IMG/VR virus record: IMGVR_UViG_3300030331_001942
Span: 1 to 32,111 of that record
DNA: 32,111 nt
Origin: a virus
Reading direction: 5' to 3' (one strand)
This document shows, piece by piece, positions 12,176-29,829 of this stretch (position 1 is its first letter; every line of letters begins with the position of its first letter). Position numbers and translations under genes: made by a program. A model generated the notes under the pieces. It saw nothing but the letters and a program-made list of their open reading frames with translations. It had not been told where the DNA came from and searched no databases.

Positions 12176-15100
12176 ATGGCATCACTAACTGGAAATACAA
12201 TATCATCGTCATATTTTGGATTGTTAAAAACAAGCGATAATGCAGTTTTAAATTCTACATTAAGAATAATTGAAGATGGAGACGGAACTGACTCTAGCAT
12301 AAAATTATCTACAACTCAACTAGGTTTAGCAAATGGAACGACAACTGTTCCTTCATTAACTTTTTCAAGTGATAGTGATACAGGATTATATTATACTACA
12401 AATAAAATTAATGCAACAATAGGAGGCGTTACCAAACTTGAATTAGGTACTTCAAGCCTAAAATTGTCAGCTTATGGTAGTGGTAGTATAACTGGTACAG
12501 TAACACAAAGACTAGGTGTAACTTCTAGTGGAGAGGTTGTAGAAATTCCTATCGGTTCAGGAGCAGTTGATGGTAGTGGTACGGCAGGTAAGATTACAAA
12601 GTGGACAGATTCAGATACAATTGGTGATTCTATAATTTCAGAAAGCAGTTCAACAATTACTATTGGGGCATCAAGTCCTGTATTAAAATTTGATAATTTA
12701 GCCGGTGGTGGAGCTGACCCATCATTGACTGCAAGTGGTACTGACTTTACAATATCAACTACAAGCATAACTCCAATGACAATTGATCTTTCAGGTGGTT
12801 TGATAAAAATGGAAGAAAGTTTAGGTTTAGGTGGTATTGACCCTACATCTCGTCTAGAAATTTCAGGTGGATCTCTAGCTAGTGGAACTGTAACAAATAT
12901 TGGTATTTCAAGTGCTTTAACAACTGGTAGAACTAGAACATATGATAGTGGATCACTAGGTTCAATTAGTACAAGAGGAGATTCAAGTGCAATTGAAATA
13001 GCAGCCGGAAGTTCAGCCGGATATTTTTCAGGAATCGGTATGACTTCAAGAGGAGCAACGGCAGCTAGTGGAAGTATAATTGGATATACCTATGGAGCAG
13101 AGAGGTTTAGAGTGGACGCAGGTGGTGATTTTGGAATTGGAGTTACTAACCCATTACATCCTTTGCACGTGGGTGGAAATACACTTATTGAAGGAACTTT
13201 AACTGTATATGGAAACTCAACAATCGGAGACAATTTTGCAGATGCTCATGTTATAAATGGTAGCACACAAATAAGGTCAACTAACACTTCTACAATCGCA
13301 GTATTAGATGTAACAAGAGGCGATGCAAATAATGAAGCGGCAAACGCAACTGACTTCAGATTTGTTGCTAGCAATAGGCTCTTAACTTCTGAAAGAGCAA
13401 ACATGGAAATCTATACAAATGATTCACAAGATGCAGATTTAGGAGCAAGTATTGGTTTCGGTGGTAGGAATACAAATGCATCAACAAACGATAGTTTATT
13501 TGCTACAATAAAAGCAGGTAAAACAAATAATACTTCAGGCGAGTTTGGTGGTTATATAACAATCGGAACTGCTCAAAGTGATAGTGAAATTGTTGAAAGA
13601 TTTAGAATTGGTGAGACTGGCAATGCCACGTTTTCAGGTAATATTACAATTTCACAAAGTAATGCTTCTTCATCTGATTTAATAAATCAAAATACACACG
13701 GCACTGGTACATCAAGATTTATTGCACAATCAAATACAACTGACCAAAATGCACAACTTGTTTCAGATGATTCAAATAACATTTCTTGGGTAGGTACTTC
13801 TACTGGTGGCACAAATAGAATAGCTTTTATTAATAATACAAACGCATATTATGAAGGTGGTAATTTTGGACTGGGTACGACATCGCCAAAACATTATTCA
13901 GGAACAACTGGTAAAGTTTTATCTATACATAGTGCAACTCATAGAGGTATACTAGAATTAAGTGGTGCATCAAATTCTGATGAAGCAATTATTGGTGCAA
14001 TAACATTTGCTAACACAGAAAACACTTCGGCAAATGGTGCGTTATCTCAAATTTTTACTTATACAGAGACAAGCGATTCAAATGCAAGTGATGATAGTGG
14101 TGGACATCTAGCATTTTTAACTAGACCCGAAGCAGGTACAATAACAGAACGTATGCGTATCAAAAGTTCAGGGGCTATACAATTTAATTCTTACGGAAGT
14201 GGAACTCATACTGGAACTGCTACTAAATTTTTAGCAGTTGATTCAAGTGGTAATGTAATAGAAGAAGCTACAAGTACAATTGACGGTTCAGGTACTGCTG
14301 GAAAAATTGTTAAGTGGAGTGATGCTGACAGTATTACAGATTCTATAATGTCTGAAAGTGGAGACCAAATTACTTTAACAGCTGGGACACCATCCTTTAA
14401 ATTAAGTGATTCAAGTTCAGGTGGTAGCACAACTCATACTTTAGATGGAGTAAATTATACTTTATCTAATTTGTCTACAAATGGTAATATTATTTTATCT
14501 ACTGCTGGTACTGGAAGCGTAGGAATTGGAACGACTTCTCCTGATACAAATCTTCACGTTTTTGAAGCAAGTGCAGGAAGTGTGGATGCAAGTTCCGATG
14601 CCCAATTATGTGTTGAAAATAGTGGAGTAACTGCTATAAATTTATTGAGTGGAACTACAAGTCATGGTCAAATATTATTTGGCGATTCAGGTGATAATGA
14701 TGCAGGGCAATTAGGTTATGACCATACAGATAATGCAATGTACATTAGAACTAATGGTTCATCTGATAAACATTTGTTTGTATCATCTGCTGGAAATACT
14801 GGTATAGGCACGACTTCGCCAACGGCAAAAATGCAAGTATTTACTGGTGGCAATAGTGTAGATGCGGCAATGGTTGTTCAACATGACACTTTTGATGCTG
14901 ATAGAAAAGTGGGTATAGGATTTAAGTTAGGTGATACAAAAGTAAAAGGTGCCATTGCATTTATGTCTGATAGTTCTAGTCCAGGTACAAATGGTAGAGG
15001 TAATTTAATATTTTGCACCGATAGTACAGATGATACTGGTACTGTTTCACATAATGACCAAAAAATGGTAATTAAACATACTGGTAAAGTCGGTATCAAT

Positions 15101-17335
15101 GTATCAGACCCAGGTGAAATTTTGCACGTAAGTGGTAATATTAGAATTAATAATAATGATGAATTAAGAACTGTAGATACTGGTGGTGCAACAAGAACTA
15201 TATTGAGAACAAATGGAGACCAATTAGAATATGGATGGTCTGCTAACGGTCCAGTAAAGTTTATGGGCGGTGGTTCATATACGGAACGAATGAGAATTCA
15301 TACAGACGGAAACATAGGAATTGGAACGGATAGTCCAAGCACTAAACTAGAAATAGTCACAGCAGCAGGAACTGATGCTATAAAATGTAATATAGGTCAA
15401 AGTGCAGATATATTTATTGGTTTTGATTCAGCAAATCCAAGAGTTTTATTACAAGATAATAGTAATGTAACCACACACAACTTTGTGTCTAATGGTGATA
15501 ATTTTATCGTTGGTTCAAACATAGGTATTGGAAACACATCTCCAACAAGACCATTAGATGTTACAGCAGATAGTGGAGCAGTAGGTATAAAAATAAGATC
15601 AAGAAGTGCTAATGATTTTGCCTTTTTATCATTTACGCAAAATGATGGTGGCGGTACTGCTTTTGCAGAGTTATCAGGTCTTGGTAGTGGTGGTGGTTTA
15701 AGAATTGATACAGCAGGTTCAGAACGTATGCGGATTAATTCTAGCGGTAATATTGGCATTGGAACGAGTACAATAAGTCAAAGATTACACCAACATGTAG
15801 CTGATAGTGGTGCAAATTATCACGCTTTTACAAATACTGGCACTGGTACTGCATCAACAGATGGTTCTGTTGTAGGAATAGATGATGCTGAAAACTTACT
15901 TTTATGGCAACAAGAAAATCTTGATATAAGAATAGGTACAGCAGGTACAGATAGAATAAGAGTAAAAAATGACGGTAAAGTTGGCATTGGAACGACTAGC
16001 CCTGATGTTTTATTAGATGTTAGAGGGGAGATTGCAGTTGATTACAATGCAACCTATGGAATAAGATTTTATAATCAAGATAGAAATAATTGGGCATCAA
16101 TTGGTAATGATGTTGCAACTGGTGATTCTACTGCAGATTTATGTTTTAAAGATTCCACAGGTGAAGCAATGAGACTAACTGGTGGCAATTTAGGAGTTGG
16201 AACAGATACTCCAAATCCATTTAGCTGGGGACAAAAACATTTAACAGTTTCTTCAGGTGGTACAAATCAATACGCTGCTCTTGATTTAGTTGGTTCAGGA
16301 AATGGTGGTGGCTTTATAAATTTTGGCGGTGGAGATGGAAGTGGAACTGCTAATAATATTTTAAGAGGGAATTTAGGTTTTGAAGATGGATCAAAATTTA
16401 TGATAAATACAAATGGATCTAATTCAGGTTCAAGTTTAACAAATCGTTTTATTTTAGATAGAAACGGAAGAGTAGGTATCAATGCTACACCAACTGCTTT
16501 TACTACTGGATTGGTAGTTAATAGATGGTCAGGCTATGACGGAACTGGCGTTGATTGTCCTTTAGTTTCAAATCACGCTGCTCATGTAGGAGGAATGTTT
16601 TTAGCACAGGAATATGATAGTGCAAATGGAGACTTTTTAGGAAACTTTAGTTCAAATCATTCATCCGCAGCTTGTAACTGGGGGTGGGCAGTTAGAGGTT
16701 CAAGAAGTGGCGAAGCAACTTCGTCAGGTACAGGATGGGTAAGTACCGCAGATAATGCAAGCCATCCAAGATCAGCAATCAGACAAACTGGTTCAGCGAT
16801 TAGTTTTTGGTTTGCAGGAACAAGTTCAACTGCTATTGGATCAGAGATTACAATGACTAAAACTATTAACGCAACTGCTTTAGGAAACTTTGCAATAACT
16901 GGGCAATTATCAAAAGGAAGTGGATCATTTAAAATTGATCATCCTTTAGAAGATAAAAAAGATACACATCATTTAGTACATTCTTTTATAGAAGGACCAC
17001 AGGCTGATTTAATATATAGAGGAAAAATAGATTTAGAAAATGGTAAGGCTACAATAAATATTGATACAGAAGCCGGTATGACTGAAGGAACTTTTGTTTT
17101 ATTAAACACTAACGTACAATGTTTTACATCTAATGAATCAGATTGGGATGCTGTCAAAGGAAAAGTTGAAGGAAACATATTAACTATTGAGTGTAAAAAT
17201 AATAAATCTACAGCAACAGTTTCTTGGATGGTTGTAGGAGAGAGACAAGACCAACATATGAAAGATACAAATTGGACAGATGAAAACGGAAAAGTAATTG
17301 TAGAGCCTGAAAAAGTTGACGATGAAGATGAATAA
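12176..17335 (+). CDS. Large tail fibre / receptor-binding protein
   Basis: A 1719-aa Ser/Thr/Gly-rich protein. It carries about twelve copies of a GIGTTSPxxxLxV-like motif, for example near residues 216, 319, 563, 782, 875, 970, 1047, 1117, 1193, 1269, 1339 and 1432. These are short beta turns between strand bundles, as in long trimeric fibres. Two similar blocks with DGSGTAGKI, ESSSTITI and ESGDQITL suggest an internal duplication (about 90-180 and 660-750). The last 140 residues form a separate domain (GSFKIDHPLEDKKDTHHLVH) shared with fibres of other marine phages, possibly a trimerisation or intramolecular chaperone domain. It probably binds the host surface. It is unusual in lying upstream of the tail tube gene. 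Confidence 0.9.
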   Translation: MASLTGNTISSSYFGLLKTSDNAVLNSTLRIIEDGDGTDSSIKLSTTQLGLANGTTTVPSLTFSSDSDTGLYYTTNKINATIGGVTKLELGTSSLKLSAYGSGSITGTVTQRLGVTSSGEVVEIPIGSGAVDGSGTAGKITKWTDSDTIGDSIISESSSTITIGASSPVLKFDNLAGGGADPSLTASGTDFTISTTSITPMTIDLSGGLIKMEESLGLGGIDPTSRLEISGGSLASGTVTNIGISSALTTGRTRTYDSGSLGSISTRGDSSAIEIAAGSSAGYFSGIGMTSRGATAASGSIIGYTYGAERFRVDAGGDFGIGVTNPLHPLHVGGNTLIEGTLTVYGNSTIGDNFADAHVINGSTQIRSTNTSTIAVLDVTRGDANNEAANATDFRFVASNRLLTSERANMEIYTNDSQDADLGASIGFGGRNTNASTNDSLFATIKAGKTNNTSGEFGGYITIGTAQSDSEIVERFRIGETGNATFSGNITISQSNASSSDLINQNTHGTGTSRFIAQSNTTDQNAQLVSDDSNNISWVGTSTGGTNRIAFINNTNAYYEGGNFGLGTTSPKHYSGTTGKVLSIHSATHRGILELSGASNSDEAIIGAITFANTENTSANGALSQIFTYTETSDSNASDDSGGHLAFLTRPEAGTITERMRIKSSGAIQFNSYGSGTHTGTATKFLAVDSSGNVIEEATSTIDGSGTAGKIVKWSDADSITDSIMSESGDQITLTAGTPSFKLSDSSSGGSTTHTLDGVNYTLSNLSTNGNIILSTAGTGSVGIGTTSPDTNLHVFEASAGSVDASSDAQLCVENSGVTAINLLSGTTSHGQILFGDSGDNDAGQLGYDHTDNAMYIRTNGSSDKHLFVSSAGNTGIGTTSPTAKMQVFTGGNSVDAAMVVQHDTFDADRKVGIGFKLGDTKVKGAIAFMSDSSSPGTNGRGNLIFCTDSTDDTGTVSHNDQKMVIKHTGKVGINVSDPGEILHVSGNIRINNNDELRTVDTGGATRTILRTNGDQLEYGWSANGPVKFMGGGSYTERMRIHTDGNIGIGTDSPSTKLEIVTAAGTDAIKCNIGQSADIFIGFDSANPRVLLQDNSNVTTHNFVSNGDNFIVGSNIGIGNTSPTRPLDVTADSGAVGIKIRSRSANDFAFLSFTQNDGGGTAFAELSGLGSGGGLRIDTAGSERMRINSSGNIGIGTSTISQRLHQHVADSGANYHAFTNTGTGTASTDGSVVGIDDAENLLLWQQENLDIRIGTAGTDRIRVKNDGKVGIGTTSPDVLLDVRGEIAVDYNATYGIRFYNQDRNNWASIGNDVATGDSTADLCFKDSTGEAMRLTGGNLGVGTDTPNPFSWGQKHLTVSSGGTNQYAALDLVGSGNGGGFINFGGGDGSGTANNILRGNLGFEDGSKFMINTNGSNSGSSLTNRFILDRNGRVGINATPTAFTTGLVVNRWSGYDGTGVDCPLVSNHAAHVGGMFLAQEYDSANGDFLGNFSSNHSSAACNWGWAVRGSRSGEATSSGTGWVSTADNASHPRSAIRQTGSAISFWFAGTSSTAIGSEITMTKTINATALGNFAITGQLSKGSGSFKIDHPLEDKKDTHHLVHSFIEGPQADLIYRGKIDLENGKATINIDTEAGMTEGTFVLLNTNVQCFTSNESDWDAVKGKVEGNILTIECKNNKSTATVSWMVVGERQDQHMKDTNWTDENGKVIVEPEKVDDEDE

Positions 17336-17373: not shown

Positions 17374-17727
17374 ATGGCTAAAGACACTATCACTTATACT
17401 TGGGATTGCAGAACTGTAGACTGTTATCCAACTAAAGACGATAACACAGATGTTGTTTATAATGTTCATTGGAGAATTAATGCAACAAGCTCAAAATTGG
17501 ATAAAGATGATAACCCTTATTCAGCAACAATTTATGGTACACAAGTTTTAGAAACAGATGACATAAAAGATTTTGTTCCATTTTCTGACTTAGATAACGA
17601 GACTGTAACAGGATGGGTAACAAGCGTTTGGGGTGAAGATAAAGTTAAAGAATACGAAACCTCATTATCTAATGAAATAGCAGATAAAATAACTCCACAA
17701 TCAGTTACACTAGAAGTAAAGGAATAA
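17374..17727 (+). CDS. Small conserved phage protein next to tail tube gene
   Basis: A 117-aa protein with the pattern DVVYNVHWRINATS, YSATIYGTQVLE and FVPFSDLDNETVTGWVTSVWG, then a C-terminal helix ending in a short strand. I recognise this as a small family common in marine phage tail or fibre regions (possibly DUF7936), with no assigned function. It lies between the fibre and tail tube genes with its own promoter-like box, so a virion-associated role is likely. Confidence 0.7.
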   Translation: MAKDTITYTWDCRTVDCYPTKDDNTDVVYNVHWRINATSSKLDKDDNPYSATIYGTQVLETDDIKDFVPFSDLDNETVTGWVTSVWGEDKVKEYETSLSNEIADKITPQSVTLEVKE

Positions 17728-17788: not shown

Positions 17789-18226
17789 ATGGCGACAACT
17801 GGCGTTTTTAACGGAACTAAAATTTTATTCCAAATATCAACTGACGGTGGAGGTAGTTTTACAACTGTAGGACACTCAACTTCGGCATCAATAAGTTTTT
17901 CAATGGATACTCCTGAAGCTACATCTAAAGATAGTGGTGGTTATTCTGAAGTAATTGCAGGCGTAAGATCAGTTGAAATCTCATTCGATGGCGTTGTTGC
18001 TTATGATGATTCTTTCAATGTCGATAATTTTATCGATTTTGTTGTTGGACCATCTAATGGCAGAGTTAAAGTAAAAGCAAGTTTTGGAACTGCTACTTCA
18101 GGTGATAAATTCTACACTGTTGATGGATTTTTCTCTAGTTTAGAATATAGTTCAGAAGCAGAAAATCCTGTAACATATTCAGGAAGTTTTGTTGGAACTG
18201 GAGCTGTAACTACAGCAACTAGATAA
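17789..18226 (+). CDS. Major tail tube protein (TP901-1 type)
   Basis: A 145-aa protein that is mostly beta strand and follows the TP901-1 major tail pattern: GTKILFQISTDGGGSFTTVG near the start, then SISFSMDTPEATSKDSGG, the strand-turn VEISFDGVVAYDDSFN, and a C-terminal LEYSSEAENPVTYSGSFVGTG. It polymerises around the tape measure protein. It stands directly before the tail assembly chaperone genes, the usual order for siphoviruses. Confidence 0.9.
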   Translation: MATTGVFNGTKILFQISTDGGGSFTTVGHSTSASISFSMDTPEATSKDSGGYSEVIAGVRSVEISFDGVVAYDDSFNVDNFIDFVVGPSNGRVKVKASFGTATSGDKFYTVDGFFSSLEYSSEAENPVTYSGSFVGTGAVTTATR

Positions 18227-18268
18227 TCTATATTTTTATATTTCATTTTCTTTGATTAGATTTGGAAT

Positions 18269-18640
18269 ATGAATAAAAACAGAGGTTACTATTCATTAGA
18301 GTTGGGGGGTAAAAAACGTACTCTCCATTTCTCTATGAATTTTTGGGTTGAACTAACTCAACACTTGGATATTTCTCTTCAAGAATTAGGCGAAGCATTT
18401 AACGATAAAATGGCTTTATCAGGAATAAGAGGCATAGTGTATTGTGGACTTTTAACATATGATAGAGAAAATAAAATACAAGTTGATTATGACGTTTACG
18501 ATGTAGGGAATTGGTTAGAGGATTTATCGCAAGACGATGTAAATGACATTATGCAATCTATGACTGAAAGTAAACTTTTAGGAAACGAATTAAACGCAGG
18601 AATCCCAAGAGAACAAAAAAAAACTCAAGTGAAGAAATAA
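18269..18640 (+). CDS. Tail assembly chaperone, short form (G-like)
   Basis: A 123-aa product of normal translation, between the tail tube and tape measure genes as for lambda gpG. It contains a beta-rich start (SLELGGKKRTLHFSMNF) followed by helices with LDISLQELGEAF and LEDLSQDDVNDIM. Near its end the mRNA carries nine A residues where a -1 shift gives a longer product (see 18269-18975). It coats the tape measure during tail assembly and is not expected in the virion. Confidence 0.85.
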   Translation: MNKNRGYYSLELGGKKRTLHFSMNFWVELTQHLDISLQELGEAFNDKMALSGIRGIVYCGLLTYDRENKIQVDYDVYDVGNWLEDLSQDDVNDIMQSMTESKLLGNELNAGIPREQKKTQVKK

Positions 18641-18975
18641 CTTGGGAAAAATTAATTGATTATTATATCGGTCAAGTAGGTATTCCACCTGATAATTTTT
18701 GGAACTATACATTTAAAGAAAACTATTTATTAGCAGAGGCTTTTAACATTAAAAGTAATTTGGCTTGGGAACAAACTAGATACTTATCATGTATGATATA
18801 CAATATGAATATTACAAAAAAAAGTCAAGCTAAAAAACCTAAAGATTTATTTAAATTACCACAAGATAATATCAAGGTCTATGTGCCACCTAAATCAACT
18901 AAAGAAGAGTTTGAAAAAATGAAAGAGGATATAGAGTGGCTACAAAGAAACAACAAATTTAAGGAACTTAAATAA
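18269..18975 (+). CDS. Tail assembly chaperone, frameshifted long form (GT-like)
   Basis: The frame of the short form (18269-18622) joins by a -1 slip to the frame 18622-18975, giving about 235 aa. The second frame is open from 18574 to 18975. It has no good start of its own (only a TTG at 18760) and encodes clearly protein-like sequence: EEITWEKLIDYYIGQVGIPP, then FKENYLLAEAF, LAWEQTRYLSCMIYNMN and DLFKLPQD. This is the GT arrangement conserved across siphoviruses. The long form would recruit the tail tube protein to the tape measure. Efficiency cannot be judged from sequence. Confidence 0.85.
18616..18622 (+). promoter_or_regulatory. -1 frameshift slippery heptamer A AAA AAA
   Basis: A run of nine A residues (18615-18623) is read as CAA AAA AAA ACT in the short-form frame. 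The heptamer A AAA AAA at 18616-18622 permits tandem re-pairing, and the next codon after the slip is AAC at 18622-18624. The short form stops 16 bases downstream at 18638-18640. I do not see a strong hairpin or a Shine-Dalgarno stimulator nearby. Confidence 0.82.
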
Positions 18976-19002: not shown

Positions 19003-21447
19003 ATGGCAAACCCATTTATCATTCCGGTTAGAATTGATGCGAAAGGTGTTACTAAAGGATTAAATAACATCTCATCTAAATTTAAAAATTTTGGTAAAAA
19101 TCTTACATTAGCAGTTTCTTTACCATTAGCAGGTATTGCTACAGCTGCTTCTAAAATGGCTTTAGGCTTTGACGAATCGCTAACAAAAATTAACACTTTA
19201 GTTGGCGTAAGTAAAAAAGAGATTCAAAGTATGCGTGGAGAGGTTATGAAGATAGCCGGAGAAACAGCACAAGCACCTGAAGCTTTAGCCGATGCTTTAT
19301 TTACTGTAACCTCAGCAGGTCTTAGAGGAAAAGAAGCTATGGAAGTTTTAAACATGGCTGCTAAAAGTTCAGCATCAGGACTAGGTGATACTAAATCAGT
19401 AGCAGGAGCATTAACCGGTGTAATGCAATCTTACGCCAAATCAGGAATGACGGCACAAAAAGCAACGGATATTTTAACAGCAACAGTAAGAGCTGGTAAT
19501 CTTGAAGCCTCAGAACTAGCACCAGTATTAGGTAGGGTTACAGGTTTAGCCTCTACATTAGGAATAGGTTTTGAAGAAGTGGGAGCGTCAATTGCTACCT
19601 TTACTAGATTAGGAGTTAAGAGTTCGGAAGCAGTTACAGGTTTGTCAGGTATAATGAGAATCTTGGTAAAGCCAACTGATCAAACTAGAGATGCCTTATT
19701 GGGAATGGGAACTAGCGTTGAAGAGTTAAGAGCAAAAATACAAGAGGATGGGTTAGCAGCAGCGTTAGCAGATTTAGTTGCGCAAGTAGGTGACGACCAA
19801 GATGCACTTGGGGAATTAATACCTGATGTTTCAGCTTTAGCTGCGGTGTTAGGTACGGCAGGAGCACAAGGTGAGGATTATGTAAAAGTAGCAGAAGAGA
19901 TAGCAAACTCAACAGGACTAGCAGACCAAGTGTTTAAAGACACAGCAGAAAGTGCAAGTTTTAAATTTAAAAAATCTTTAAATCAATTATCAGTTGTAGG
20001 TACAGAAATTGGAAGTATGTTATTACCAGTTTTAGTTGATGCAACAACTTTCGTTGGAAATTTAGTTAAAAGATTTATGGAGTTAGATGGTACTACAAAA
20101 ACTTTAGCACTTGTCTTTGGTGGTATAGTCGCAGCTGCAGGTCCACTTATAACTGCTTTAGGTTTTATAATAAGTCCAATAGGATTAATTATTACAGGTA
20201 TTACAACACTAGGGGTTATAGTTTTTAAAAACTTTGATGCCATTGTAGGATTCGTAGCTGAAGTAATAAACAGTTTTAAAGATTTATTCAACTCATCTTT
20301 AATCTTAAAAGATCCAATTGAAGCTTTAGGTGTAGCTTGGGAGACAGTAGTTAATTTTTTTAAGGCAGGAATAAACTCATTATTAACAATCTTTGAAAGT
20401 TTTGGAAAAGTTATAAAAGCAGTATGGGAAGGTGACTTTGATAAAATTGGAGATATTGTCTCAAACACTTTTGATGACTTAAAAGGTGAGTTTAAATTTG
20501 CAGGTGAAAAATCTGCACAATCTTATGAAGAAGCATTTAATAAAACCTTAGATAAAAATTTAGCACCAACTACAAAAGAAGGATTAAAGACCTCACTTGC
20601 AAATACAGTAAATGACGTAAAAGGATTTTTTGCACAAAAGGGAAAAGAACTTGGAAGTTTCATAGGATTAGGTATGGCTACATCATTAGGTGGTACATCA
20701 ACTGGTGGAGGTGGAGGTGGTGATGCCCCAGGTGGTGGAGGAACAAGTGGTGGAGGAACTGGGACTGGTGATGGTACTGATAATCCAGTTACAAAAACAG
20801 TTGGGTTCTTAGAAGTTCTAAAAGAAAAATCTTTAGAGGTTGCAGAAATTGTTGGTAGCACTTTTGGAAATATGGCCATGCAAATAGTTGAAAGTTTTGG
20901 TTTAGCCACTGAAGGTATTCAAGGGTTTTTGACTAAAATATTAGAGGGTATGGTTCAAATAGCAGATATGATATTACAAGATGTTATAAACAGAAAAATA
21001 GCAAATATACAAATCGTAAAATCAGAAGCTAAAAAAGAAAAAAGTATAGCAACTATTAGAAAGGCAGGAGCAATACAAAATAAAATAATTAAAAAAGGTG
21101 AGATAGTAGCAAGTCAAGCATCAGCAACAGCATCAGCTATTGAAGGTGGAGCAAAGTCAGGAGCAGGTACTGGTATTGGAGCAATATTTACAACCCCTGC
21201 TTTCATAGCAACTTTAGTGGCTACAGTTTTAGGAGCATTTGCGTCTATTCCTAAATTTGCAAAAGGTGGTATCGTAACAGGACCAATGTTAGGTATGGTC
21301 GGTGAAGCAGGTCCAGAGGCTATCATTCCTTTAGATAAAATGAGTTCAGTGATGGGTTCACAAAAAGGTGAGTTTGTTCTTAAAGGATCAGATTTAATTT
21401 TAGCTTTAGATAGAGCAAATAATTTTCAATCAAGAATAACAGGATGA
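19003..21447 (+). CDS. Tail tape measure protein (TP901 family)
   Basis: An 814-aa protein that sets tail length. The N-terminal third is helical and Ala-rich with the TP901 core (KMALGFDESLTKINTLVGVS, then AETAQAPEALADALFTVTSAG). A hydrophobic block lies at about 364-420. A Gly-rich linker is at about 563-596. A second hydrophobic stretch (about 726-750) leads into the canonical C-terminal motif KGGIVTGPMLGMVGEAGPEA and IIPLDKM. At about 0.15 nm per residue, the length predicts a tail of about 120 nm, which is an estimate only. No lytic transglycosylase or peptidase domain is seen. It is followed two bases later by the distal tail gene. Confidence 0.94.
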   Translation: MANPFIIPVRIDAKGVTKGLNNISSKFKNFGKNLTLAVSLPLAGIATAASKMALGFDESLTKINTLVGVSKKEIQSMRGEVMKIAGETAQAPEALADALFTVTSAGLRGKEAMEVLNMAAKSSASGLGDTKSVAGALTGVMQSYAKSGMTAQKATDILTATVRAGNLEASELAPVLGRVTGLASTLGIGFEEVGASIATFTRLGVKSSEAVTGLSGIMRILVKPTDQTRDALLGMGTSVEELRAKIQEDGLAAALADLVAQVGDDQDALGELIPDVSALAAVLGTAGAQGEDYVKVAEEIANSTGLADQVFKDTAESASFKFKKSLNQLSVVGTEIGSMLLPVLVDATTFVGNLVKRFMELDGTTKTLALVFGGIVAAAGPLITALGFIISPIGLIITGITTLGVIVFKNFDAIVGFVAEVINSFKDLFNSSLILKDPIEALGVAWETVVNFFKAGINSLLTIFESFGKVIKAVWEGDFDKIGDIVSNTFDDLKGEFKFAGEKSAQSYEEAFNKTLDKNLAPTTKEGLKTSLANTVNDVKGFFAQKGKELGSFIGLGMATSLGGTSTGGGGGGDAPGGGGTSGGGTGTGDGTDNPVTKTVGFLEVLKEKSLEVAEIVGSTFGNMAMQIVESFGLATEGIQGFLTKILEGMVQIADMILQDVINRKIANIQIVKSEAKKEKSIATIRKAGAIQNKIIKKGEIVASQASATASAIEGGAKSGAGTGIGAIFTTPAFIATLVATVLGAFASIPKFAKGGIVTGPMLGMVGEAGPEAIIPLDKMSSVMGSQKGEFVLKGSDLILALDRANNFQSRITG

Positions 21448-25752: not shown

Positions 25753-25816
25753 AGAGTAAAGTTAATAACCCAATTAATAAAACAGCTACAATTTTAATTA
25801 TTTTTTTTTTGATCAT
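25688..25816 (-). CDS. 42-aa membrane-type overlapping frame, candidate
   Basis: An ATG at 25816, inside the end of the DUF1599-type gene, opens a 42-aa frame with a basic start (MIKKKIIK), one hydrophobic helix (IVAVLLIGLLTLLYVG) and a basic tail that overlaps the nuclease gene in another phase. It would fill the 41-base gap between its neighbours. The hydrophobic segment is striking, but the start includes a ten-A run and the frame may be chance. Confidence 0.3.
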   Translation of the reverse strand: MIKKKIIKIVAVLLIGLLTLLYVGNNIKAKGSRLRKESETRI

Positions 25817-26120
25817 CTCTTTCTTTAAATAGAGCAAGACCTAAGTAGCAGTAATTTATTATATCAGCAAACCGGCTTTCAATAGGTTCAGATTTTTTTA
25901 GATTAGCATTTTTTAAATGTGCAAAAACGCTTTGAATTTGTTTGTCAAAAAAGACACCCCATACACGCATCTCAGAAACATCTAGCCTTTCAGCTGTGTT
26001 TTTAAAATTTTGTAATACGTCTTCATTTTCATTTGTGTATTCCGGTCTTTTATTTTTCATTATCTTTTGAGAAAGCTCCATTAAATCTTTCATTACTTTG
26101 TCAAACTCTTGTTGTGTCAT
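25794..26120 (-). CDS. DUF1599 / nucleotide-modification-associated domain protein
   Basis: A 108-aa protein that I recognise as the DUF1599-type (nucleotide modification associated domain 1) family: RPEYTNENEDVLQNFKNTAERL, then the conserved VFFDKQIQSVFAH helix and the C-terminal IESRFADIINYCYLGLALF. The fold is related to MazG-like all-alpha nucleotide-handling proteins. Members are common in phages, and some are linked by context with base modification. Role here unproven. It overlaps the upstream gene by ATGA. Confidence 0.75.
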   Translation of the reverse strand: MTQQEFDKVMKDLMELSQKIMKNKRPEYTNENEDVLQNFKNTAERLDVSEMRVWGVFFDKQIQSVFAHLKNANLKKSEPIESRFADIINYCYLGLALFKERDDQKKNN

Positions 26121-29369: not shown

Positions 29370-29570
29370 ATGACACAAGAACAATCTTTACAAGTTATCG
29401 TTCAAGTTTGTGAGAAAGCAAACAAGAGTGGCCTTTTTACTTTAAGTGAATCTCATTTGGTACTTCAAGCATTAGAACAGTTTGGCGTAAAACCACAAAT
29501 AGCAAATGAGGTGGAACAAGCTGAAGAAGCAAAAGAGGTCAAGTCCGAAACTAAAGAAGTCAAAGACTAG
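29370..29570 (+). CDS. 66-aa early protein, unknown
   Basis: A 66-aa protein with a helical body (QSLQVIVQVCEKANKSGLFT) and an acidic/basic repetitive tail (EEAKEVKSETKEVKD). Similar small proteins occur in marine phages near helicase genes. Function unknown. Confidence 0.62.
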   Translation: MTQEQSLQVIVQVCEKANKSGLFTLSESHLVLQALEQFGVKPQIANEVEQAEEAKEVKSETKEVKD

Positions 29571-29829
29571 ATATACATTTAATTGTTACGAATCTAACGA
29601 AAAAATACTAGGCTCTACAGATGATCCCTGTAGAACAACTATGTCTTTATGGACTATTTATAAGTCTAAAAAAAAAAAAGTTTCATTTGACATAAACAAA
29701 AAATCTAAGTATTTCCAATCTGACCATGAGTTGAGTTTTTCAGATATAGACGGAAAAAAAATATACAAATACCAAAATAATATTATTACAAGAGACAGAT
29801 TTGTAATACTTTTAGGCTGTGAAACCTAA
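29506..29829 (+). CDS. 107-aa protein, unknown (start uncertain)
   Basis: The frame 29506-29829 overlaps the end of the 66-aa gene. The first part (RWNKLKKQKRSSPKLKK) is a shifted reading of that gene's tail. The part after it (TRYTFNCYESNEKILGSTDD) looks like the beginning of a normal protein, beta-rich with Lys and Tyr. An internal ATG at 29641 would give a shorter product. A +1 frameshift from the upstream gene is conceivable. No family recognised. Confidence 0.55.
   Translation: MRWNKLKKQKRSSPKLKKSKTRYTFNCYESNEKILGSTDDPCRTTMSLWTIYKSKKKKVSFDINKKSKYFQSDHELSFSDIDGKKIYKYQNNIITRDRFVILLGCET

Follow-up and report, generated by a model that had tools for sequence, protein, structure and literature searches.

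A putative programmed -1 frameshift in the tail assembly chaperone locus of environmental phages, with repeated exchange of the slip site

Two overlapping open reading frames (ORF1 and ORF2) of an environmental phage most likely form a single gene expressed by programmed frameshifting of the phage lambda G/GT kind, with a probability of ca. 93% that refers to the frameshift itself and not to the agent of the slip. They are found in a complete IMG/VR virus record of 32,111 bases (hereafter the window, meaning this whole stretch of DNA), and sequence comparison supports their joint expression on five grounds: the conserved -1 relation between the two frames, the presence of a slip site in the proper phase, the lack of a start codon for ORF2, the gene order, and a predicted fold of ORF1 that resembles tail assembly chaperones. 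No prior link of this family to frameshifting was found in PHROGs or in the literature searched and, as judged from the sequences compared, the ORF1/ORF2 family is a new and strongly conserved example of the G/GT frameshift. The two features that were not expected are the repeated exchange of the slip site and, in lineages where this site is a run of A's, the strict length of 9 to 10 A's. The coordinates of the corresponding features are given in Table 1.

Table 1. Features of the window in and around the ORF1/ORF2 pair.
Feature	Positions	Strand	Match or remark
Gene 5' of the tail tube gene, PF25590 (DUF7936)	17374..17727	+	Pfam match E=4.7e-21
Major tail (tube) protein gene	17789..18226	+	PF06199 E=1.6e-18; phrog_1407 major tail protein E=7e-27
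TAGATTTG, promoter-like Bacteroidota -7 motif	18257..18264	+	4 nt 5' of the ORF1 ATG
ORF1, predicted short tail assembly chaperone (gpG-like), 123 aa	18269..18640	+	phrog_2115 'tail protein' E=2.5e-8; AlphaFold2 model
ORF1 stop codon TAA	18638..18640	+	
A9 slip tract (putative)	18615..18623	+	
In-phase slippery heptamer A_AAA_AAA	18616..18622	+	
Entire open stretch of the -1 frame, 133 codons + stop	18574..18975	+	
ORF2, putative -1 frame extension (gpT-like), 117 codons + stop, without its own start	18622..18975	+	phrog_16333 E=1.8e-11
7-bp hairpin flush with the tract, not conserved	18624..18646	+	
Tape measure protein gene	19003..21447	+	PF10145 E=1.2e-21; phrog_991 E=1e-57

In Pfam comparisons, the gene 5' of the ORF1/ORF2 pair matches PF06199 (tail tube) and the gene 3' of it PF10145 (tape measure), giving the order tail tube - ORF1 - ORF2 - tape measure, and PHROG matches locate the genes for the terminase, the portal, head morphogenesis and the major head protein farther 5'. 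Between these head genes and the tail tube gene, positions 12176-17335 are occupied by a 1719-aa ORF having no Pfam match.

An initial annotation, made from the letters of the window alone, had proposed that a nine-A tract near the end of ORF1 allows the slip A AAA AAA. The tract is indeed present, its first base lying at 18615 and thus one base before the start initially assigned (18616), and the postulated heptamer occurs in phase as A_AAA_AAA shortly 5' of the ORF1 stop. Positions 18600-18640 read GAATCCCAAGAGAACAAAAAAAAACTCAAGTGAAGAAATAA, and the last codons of ORF1 are CAA AAA AAA ACT CAA GTG AAG AAA TAA. The -1 frame opens past a stop at 18571-18573 and closes at the stop at 18973-18975, so that the long open frame described initially extends for 117 codons beyond the slip site and ends before the tape measure gene; at the base composition of the window, an open frame of 117 codons is expected by chance with P ~3e-5. 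This frame contains no ATG, GTG or TTG 5' of the conserved ORF2 domain, the earliest TTG being found at 18760. Runs of eight or nine A's are not rare in such an A-rich sequence (37 matches to A8 for 27 expected) and the significance of the tract therefore resides in its position, frame and conservation and not in the tract alone. Two longer runs occur elsewhere in the window, an A12 at 29668-29679 (+) inside a predicted ORF (29506-29829) and an A10 at 25801-25810 (-) near the stop of another (25794-26120); runs as long as these are rare in related phages.

The family was gathered by scans of IMG/VR viral contigs, which yielded 318 sequences (317 loci and the window). Both ORFs are held by 313 of them, 255 of which are left once identical copies are removed. 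ORF2 lies in the -1 frame relative to ORF1 in all 313 loci and no fused copy was found. An in-phase heptamer of the form X_XXY_YYZ is present inside the overlap in 254 of the 255 non-identical loci, where the site classes are GGGAAAG, which is the lambda-type heptamer (79 loci), A9 (58), A10 (51) and A_AAA_AAC_CCA_AAG (46), followed by the minor classes A_AAA_AAG_GGA_AAG (8), A_AAA_AAG (7), CCCAAAG (4) and GGGAAAC (1), with one locus having none. This last relative (L017:3974-3992, TACAGAAGAAGCAAAGTAG) carries either an error or an unusual slip site. In some loci the ORF1/ORF2 overlap is as short as 10-16 nt, which pins down the point of the slip, and in several phages GGG AAA directly after a stop codon opens the -1 frame. 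The ORF1 stop adjoins the 3' end of the heptamer in 36 of 78 representatives, which belong to several site classes. At the end of ORF1 in L164, L216 and others, two overlapping heptamers occur in tandem and mutually in phase, as A_AAA_AAG_GGA_AAG or A_AAA_AAC_CCA_AAG.

Searches for the family outside viral contigs gave little, a first scan of genome contigs returning nothing and a second one returning only three contigs labelled as MAGs (L327, L328 and L329). In all three the two frames again stand in the -1 relation, the sites found being A_AAA_AAG, A_AAA_AAG_GGA_AAG and GGGAAAC. They are assigned to MAGs of Rhodobiaceae, Woesearchaeota and Gammaproteobacteria, and are probably mis-binned phage contigs.

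The lack of a good start for the second frame, already noted initially for the window, extends to the family, since no ATG, GTG or TTG was found 5' of the conserved ORF2 domain in 248 of the 249 loci in which the ORF2 motif was found. The initial annotation had further suggested that relatives be aligned for a conserved A-tract: the tract proved not to be universal, and what replaces it is another slip site and not a start codon. This bears on the possibility that ORF2 is a separate gene with a non-canonical or coupled start of its own, the overlap reflecting ordinary gene packing. Overlapping phage genes are often translationally coupled, and in two cultured Cellulophaga phages, phi12:1 and phi18:2 (see below), ATG codons occur 5' of the tract in the ORF2 frame, one being the annotated start in phi18:2. 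Packing alone, however, would also yield +1 or gapped arrangements, when only -1 was found in the 313 loci, and the slip heptamers are kept while the surrounding amino acids vary; together with the near-complete absence of start codons, this makes a separate ORF2 very improbable. Even less credit can be given to an error of sequencing or assembly, in which the true gene would be a single in-frame ORF and the length of the A-run would be wrong. Long homopolymers are error-prone on some platforms, but all 313 loci share the frame break, over half of the non-identical loci have heptamers that are not homopolymers, and the three MAG-labelled contigs show the break as well. The GGGAAAG and CCCAAAG classes refute such an error at the level of the entire family.

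HMM comparisons assigned all 46 aligned members of the ORF1 family to phrog_2115 and all 47 aligned members of the ORF2 family to phrog_16333. The function of PHROG 16333 is listed as unknown in PHROGs, and the PHROG family tables examined contain no frameshift link between the two families. Against Pfam, ORF1 relatives gave sub-threshold matches to Phage_TAC_11, and ORF2 relatives gave weak, sub-threshold ones to Phage_TAC_6 and to Minor tail protein T (Phage_tail_T); ORF1 had no significant sequence match to a characterised tail chaperone. Structural matches of the AlphaFold2 model of ORF1 (pLDDT 79) in BFVD include several proteins annotated as tail assembly chaperones as well as a protein of Cellulophaga phage phi18:2, and no match was obtained when the PDB was searched for this fold. 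The model of ORF2 has a weaker structural match to another protein of phi18:2. At the profile level, ORF2 matches gp55 of that phage with a probability of 96.7, and the profile of ORF1 gave no match to gp54.

Taken together, the gene order, the fold match of ORF1 and the association of a -1 frame, a slip site and a startless ORF2 across hundreds of loci support the lambda G/GT logic that was proposed initially. Most expression would stop at 18640 and give the short chaperone, and a minority would slip at the A-tract and continue in the -1 frame to 18975, giving a predicted ORF1-ORF2 fusion. On the model of lambda, the tape measure protein would be coated by the short form and the extension carried by the fusion would recruit the tail tube subunit, thereby setting up tail assembly.

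The distribution of the slip sites was followed on a FastTree phylogeny of 214 joined protein rows. The site classes need 17 changes on this tree, nine of which concern the A-tract class, with at least five forced by well-supported (starred) branches, and nine pure A-tract clades are found. The slip site has thus been exchanged repeatedly when the -1 relation never changed, and, on this comparative evidence, the family has at least four slip sites that can replace one another, of which the A-tract is one. Relatives that have GGGAAAG, CCCAAAG or A_AAA_AAG and lack a long run must use the ribosome, which indicates that ribosomal slipping operates in the gene family, and these short-run classes are best read as ribosomal.

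The length of the runs suggests that the situation may differ in A-tract lineages. All-A tracts are 9 or 10 long in all nine clades, the two registers and two lengths occurring in all four combinations, and neither A7 nor A8 occurs at the slip site in any of the 109 non-identical A-tract loci. The other genes in the loci of the family contain in-phase A_AAA_AAA 99 times in an A7, 35 times in an A8 and 3 times in a longer run (134 of 137 in runs of 7-8), so that a run of at least nine would arise by chance in ca. 2% of cases per independent lineage. When these other genes were compared with synonymous-codon shuffles in two sets, runs of at least nine were depleted in both (3 vs 9.9 and 1 vs 6.3), A7 was depleted in neither, and A8 was at most mildly depleted (11 vs 12.8; 12 vs 18.6, the latter in phages with other heptamers). 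The clade lengths, the background and the shuffles converge on a length that is selected at the slip site and that other genes avoid, the threshold being near nine. A length of at least nine A's thus looks selected, and ribosomal slippage is then not to be taken for granted in these lineages. Polymerase slippage might also select for earlier closure of the third (+1) frame, but a comparison of A-tract phages with the others revealed no clear difference (median 8 vs 10 codons).

Two agents of the slip have to be weighed for these tracts. In a purely ribosomal -1 event, tandem lysyl-tRNAs would slip on A_AAA_AAA (18616-18622), a longer run merely raising efficiency. The window and every A-tract relative have this heptamer in phase, the ORF1 stop frequently adjoins the slip heptamer in the family (see above), ribosomal sites occur elsewhere in the family, and efficiency rose with run length in an E. 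coli reporter carrying another gene family, for which Antonov et al. measured 10% frameshifting with 7 A, 40% with 9 A and 63% with 11 A, the agents not being separated in that assay (PMC3711429). A7 and A8, however, would contain this heptamer too, and in-phase copies of them are frequent in other genes, yet they are absent from the slip site, and a simple need for the heptamer leaves unexplained why runs compensate in length between registers. A purely ribosomal mechanism is considered the main alternative for the A-tracts, at somewhat less than even odds.

Alternatively, the RNA polymerase of the host would add or remove A's on the tract and the altered mRNA would be translated normally, the fusion resulting in the window from one added A (an A10 mRNA). 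This would account for a run length of 9-10 in all nine A-tract clades whatever the register, and for the avoidance of runs of at least nine in other genes of the same loci. It also agrees with Baranov et al., for whom a nine-A run conserved among homologues is a sign of purposeful transcriptional slippage (PMC1088944), and precedents exist in Thermus dnaX, cited as slippage on nine A's (PMC3711429), and in Citrobacter tssM1 with 11 A's (PMC4256274). On the other hand, in-phase A_AAA_AAA is unavoidable in any run of at least nine, so that the register of the run cannot separate ribosome from polymerase; one study of a poly(A) construct could not detect slippage by the E. coli RNA polymerase (PMC6260861); and the literature searched yielded no slippage data for a Bacteroidota polymerase, nor any paper connecting tail assembly chaperones with transcriptional slippage. 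As no all-A run falls outside the range of 9-10, RNA polymerase slippage is favoured by a small measure as a participant in A-tract lineages, and the odds that it is the main agent there appear about even. A more inclusive scenario, regarded as possible but just short of even odds, is that the frameshift has switched repeatedly between ribosomal sites (GGGAAAG, CCCAAAG and A_AAA_AAG) and polymerase-slip tracts (A9/A10), selection holding the tract at 9-10, so that the recoding that yields the same fusion would be translational in some lineages and transcriptional in others.

Cultured phages provide a further element in this respect. Isolated phages searched with ORF1 and ORF2 of the window at normal thresholds returned nothing, and Cellulophaga phages were reached by a permissive sequence search combined with the structure search. 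The ORF1/ORF2 pair is present in five Cellulophaga Helsingorvirus isolates, namely phi12:1, phi12:3, phi17:1, phi18:1 and phi18:2 (loci L330-L335). In phi17:1 the tract is A10 and ORF2 is in the -1 frame, whereas in the four other isolates, as deposited, it is A9 and ORF2 is in the +1 frame, the call for phi12:3 being based on an ungapped match of equal length. A ribosomal -1 slip would dead-end in these A9 isolates, and only a mechanism indifferent to length would serve both arrangements, which speaks for the polymerase; the difference could also stem from sequencing errors in the homopolymer. The run lengths as deposited are either incorrect or a natural variation served by length-agnostic slippage. 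One of the isolates, phi18:1, has no RNA polymerase gene (PMC11946311), and proteomics data of its infection of Cellulophaga baltica are public (PXD066074, MassIVE MSV000098485; PMC13288928).

The initial annotation had also reported the absence of an obvious stimulating hairpin. This is almost correct: the window has a 7-bp hairpin flush with the tract (Table 1), but that hairpin is absent or weak in near relatives and no conserved stimulator was found at the window site. A comparison with Rfam gave no match. Downstream folding at the window site gave no signal (z = +0.3, and +0.64 in a second computation), and no hairpin was detected 5' of the run (z = -0.16 for the upstream 50 nt; -1.09 for another interval). 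Mean downstream z values are weak for A9 (-1.0), A10 (-1.1) and GGGAAAG (-0.7), and clearer for A_AAA_AAC_CCA_AAG (-2.2, n=7) and A_AAA_AAG (-3.2, n=2), which is suggestive of a stimulating structure in the CCCAAAG-type and A_AAA_AAG classes only. These two classes (L146, L161, L215 and related loci) fold downstream more strongly, with z of ca. -2 to -3, than the A-tract classes. Stimulators are known to be absent at some frameshift sites of tailed phages (PMC5009743).

Regarding the host, the best matches of the terminase among isolates are Bacteroides phages, with 38-41% identity. TAnnTTTG is a Bacteroidota promoter motif, and it occurs within 45 nt 5' of 7 of the 28 genes of the window, whereas 2,000 random draws gave 0.94 on average and never more than 5. 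These data and the Cellulophaga homologue of ORF2 make a Bacteroidota host likely, in line with the Bacteroidetes phage of the initial annotation. The copy of the motif that precedes ORF1, TAGATTTG, is found at the same spacing from the ORF1 ATG in six representatives of nearby phages; the ORF1 mRNA may be nearly leaderless, a possibility limited to the window and its near relatives.

Several consequences follow. A recoded function can be assigned to PHROG 2115 and PHROG 16333 in hundreds of environmental phages, and annotators should join the two. The family also represents a natural experiment in slip-site turnover, in which one gene and one required product are combined with at least four slip sites. 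The run pattern, six A's then G or 9-10 A's but never 7-8, makes the question of ribosome versus polymerase testable in cultured marine phages. Should polymerase slippage prove true, the ratio of the short form to the fusion would be set by the RNA polymerase of the host in some phages and by the ribosome in others.

When compared to known systems, the pair most closely resembles the tail assembly chaperones G and GT of lambda, which are produced by a -1 frameshift (Levin 1993; Xu 2004; reviewed in PMC5009743) in a 30:1 ratio of products. Both have a short chaperone gene between the tail tube and tape measure genes, a startless -1 extension and a heptamer near the end of the first ORF, and the GGGAAAG of lambda is the site of many relatives of the window. 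They differ in that the window has A9 instead of GGGAAAG and in that similarity to gpG and gpT is not significant. Transcriptional realignment on A-runs, as in Thermus dnaX and IS elements (9 A each) and Citrobacter tssM1 (11 A) (PMC3711429, PMC1088944, PMC4256274), shares with the A-tract lineages a conserved A-run (9-10 A's) close to the 3' end of the first ORF and an extension in another frame; relatives of the window arrive at the same product through ribosomal heptamers, as is the case for dnaX and IS elements. The difference is that the A-tracts of the window family always contain an in-phase ribosomal heptamer, mRNA slippage being a candidate mechanism here. Among described families, PHROG 2115 and PHROG 16333 contain ORF1 and ORF2, respectively, by HMM. 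Finally, the Cellulophaga Helsingorvirus phages share with the window the order with the tail tube and tape measure genes, a homologous ORF2 and A9 or A10 at the same junction, but their ORF1 is too divergent for a sequence match and their ORF2 is in the -1 frame with A10 and in the +1 frame with A9; in phi18:2, the pair corresponds to gp54 and gp55, which are annotated as two hypothetical proteins.
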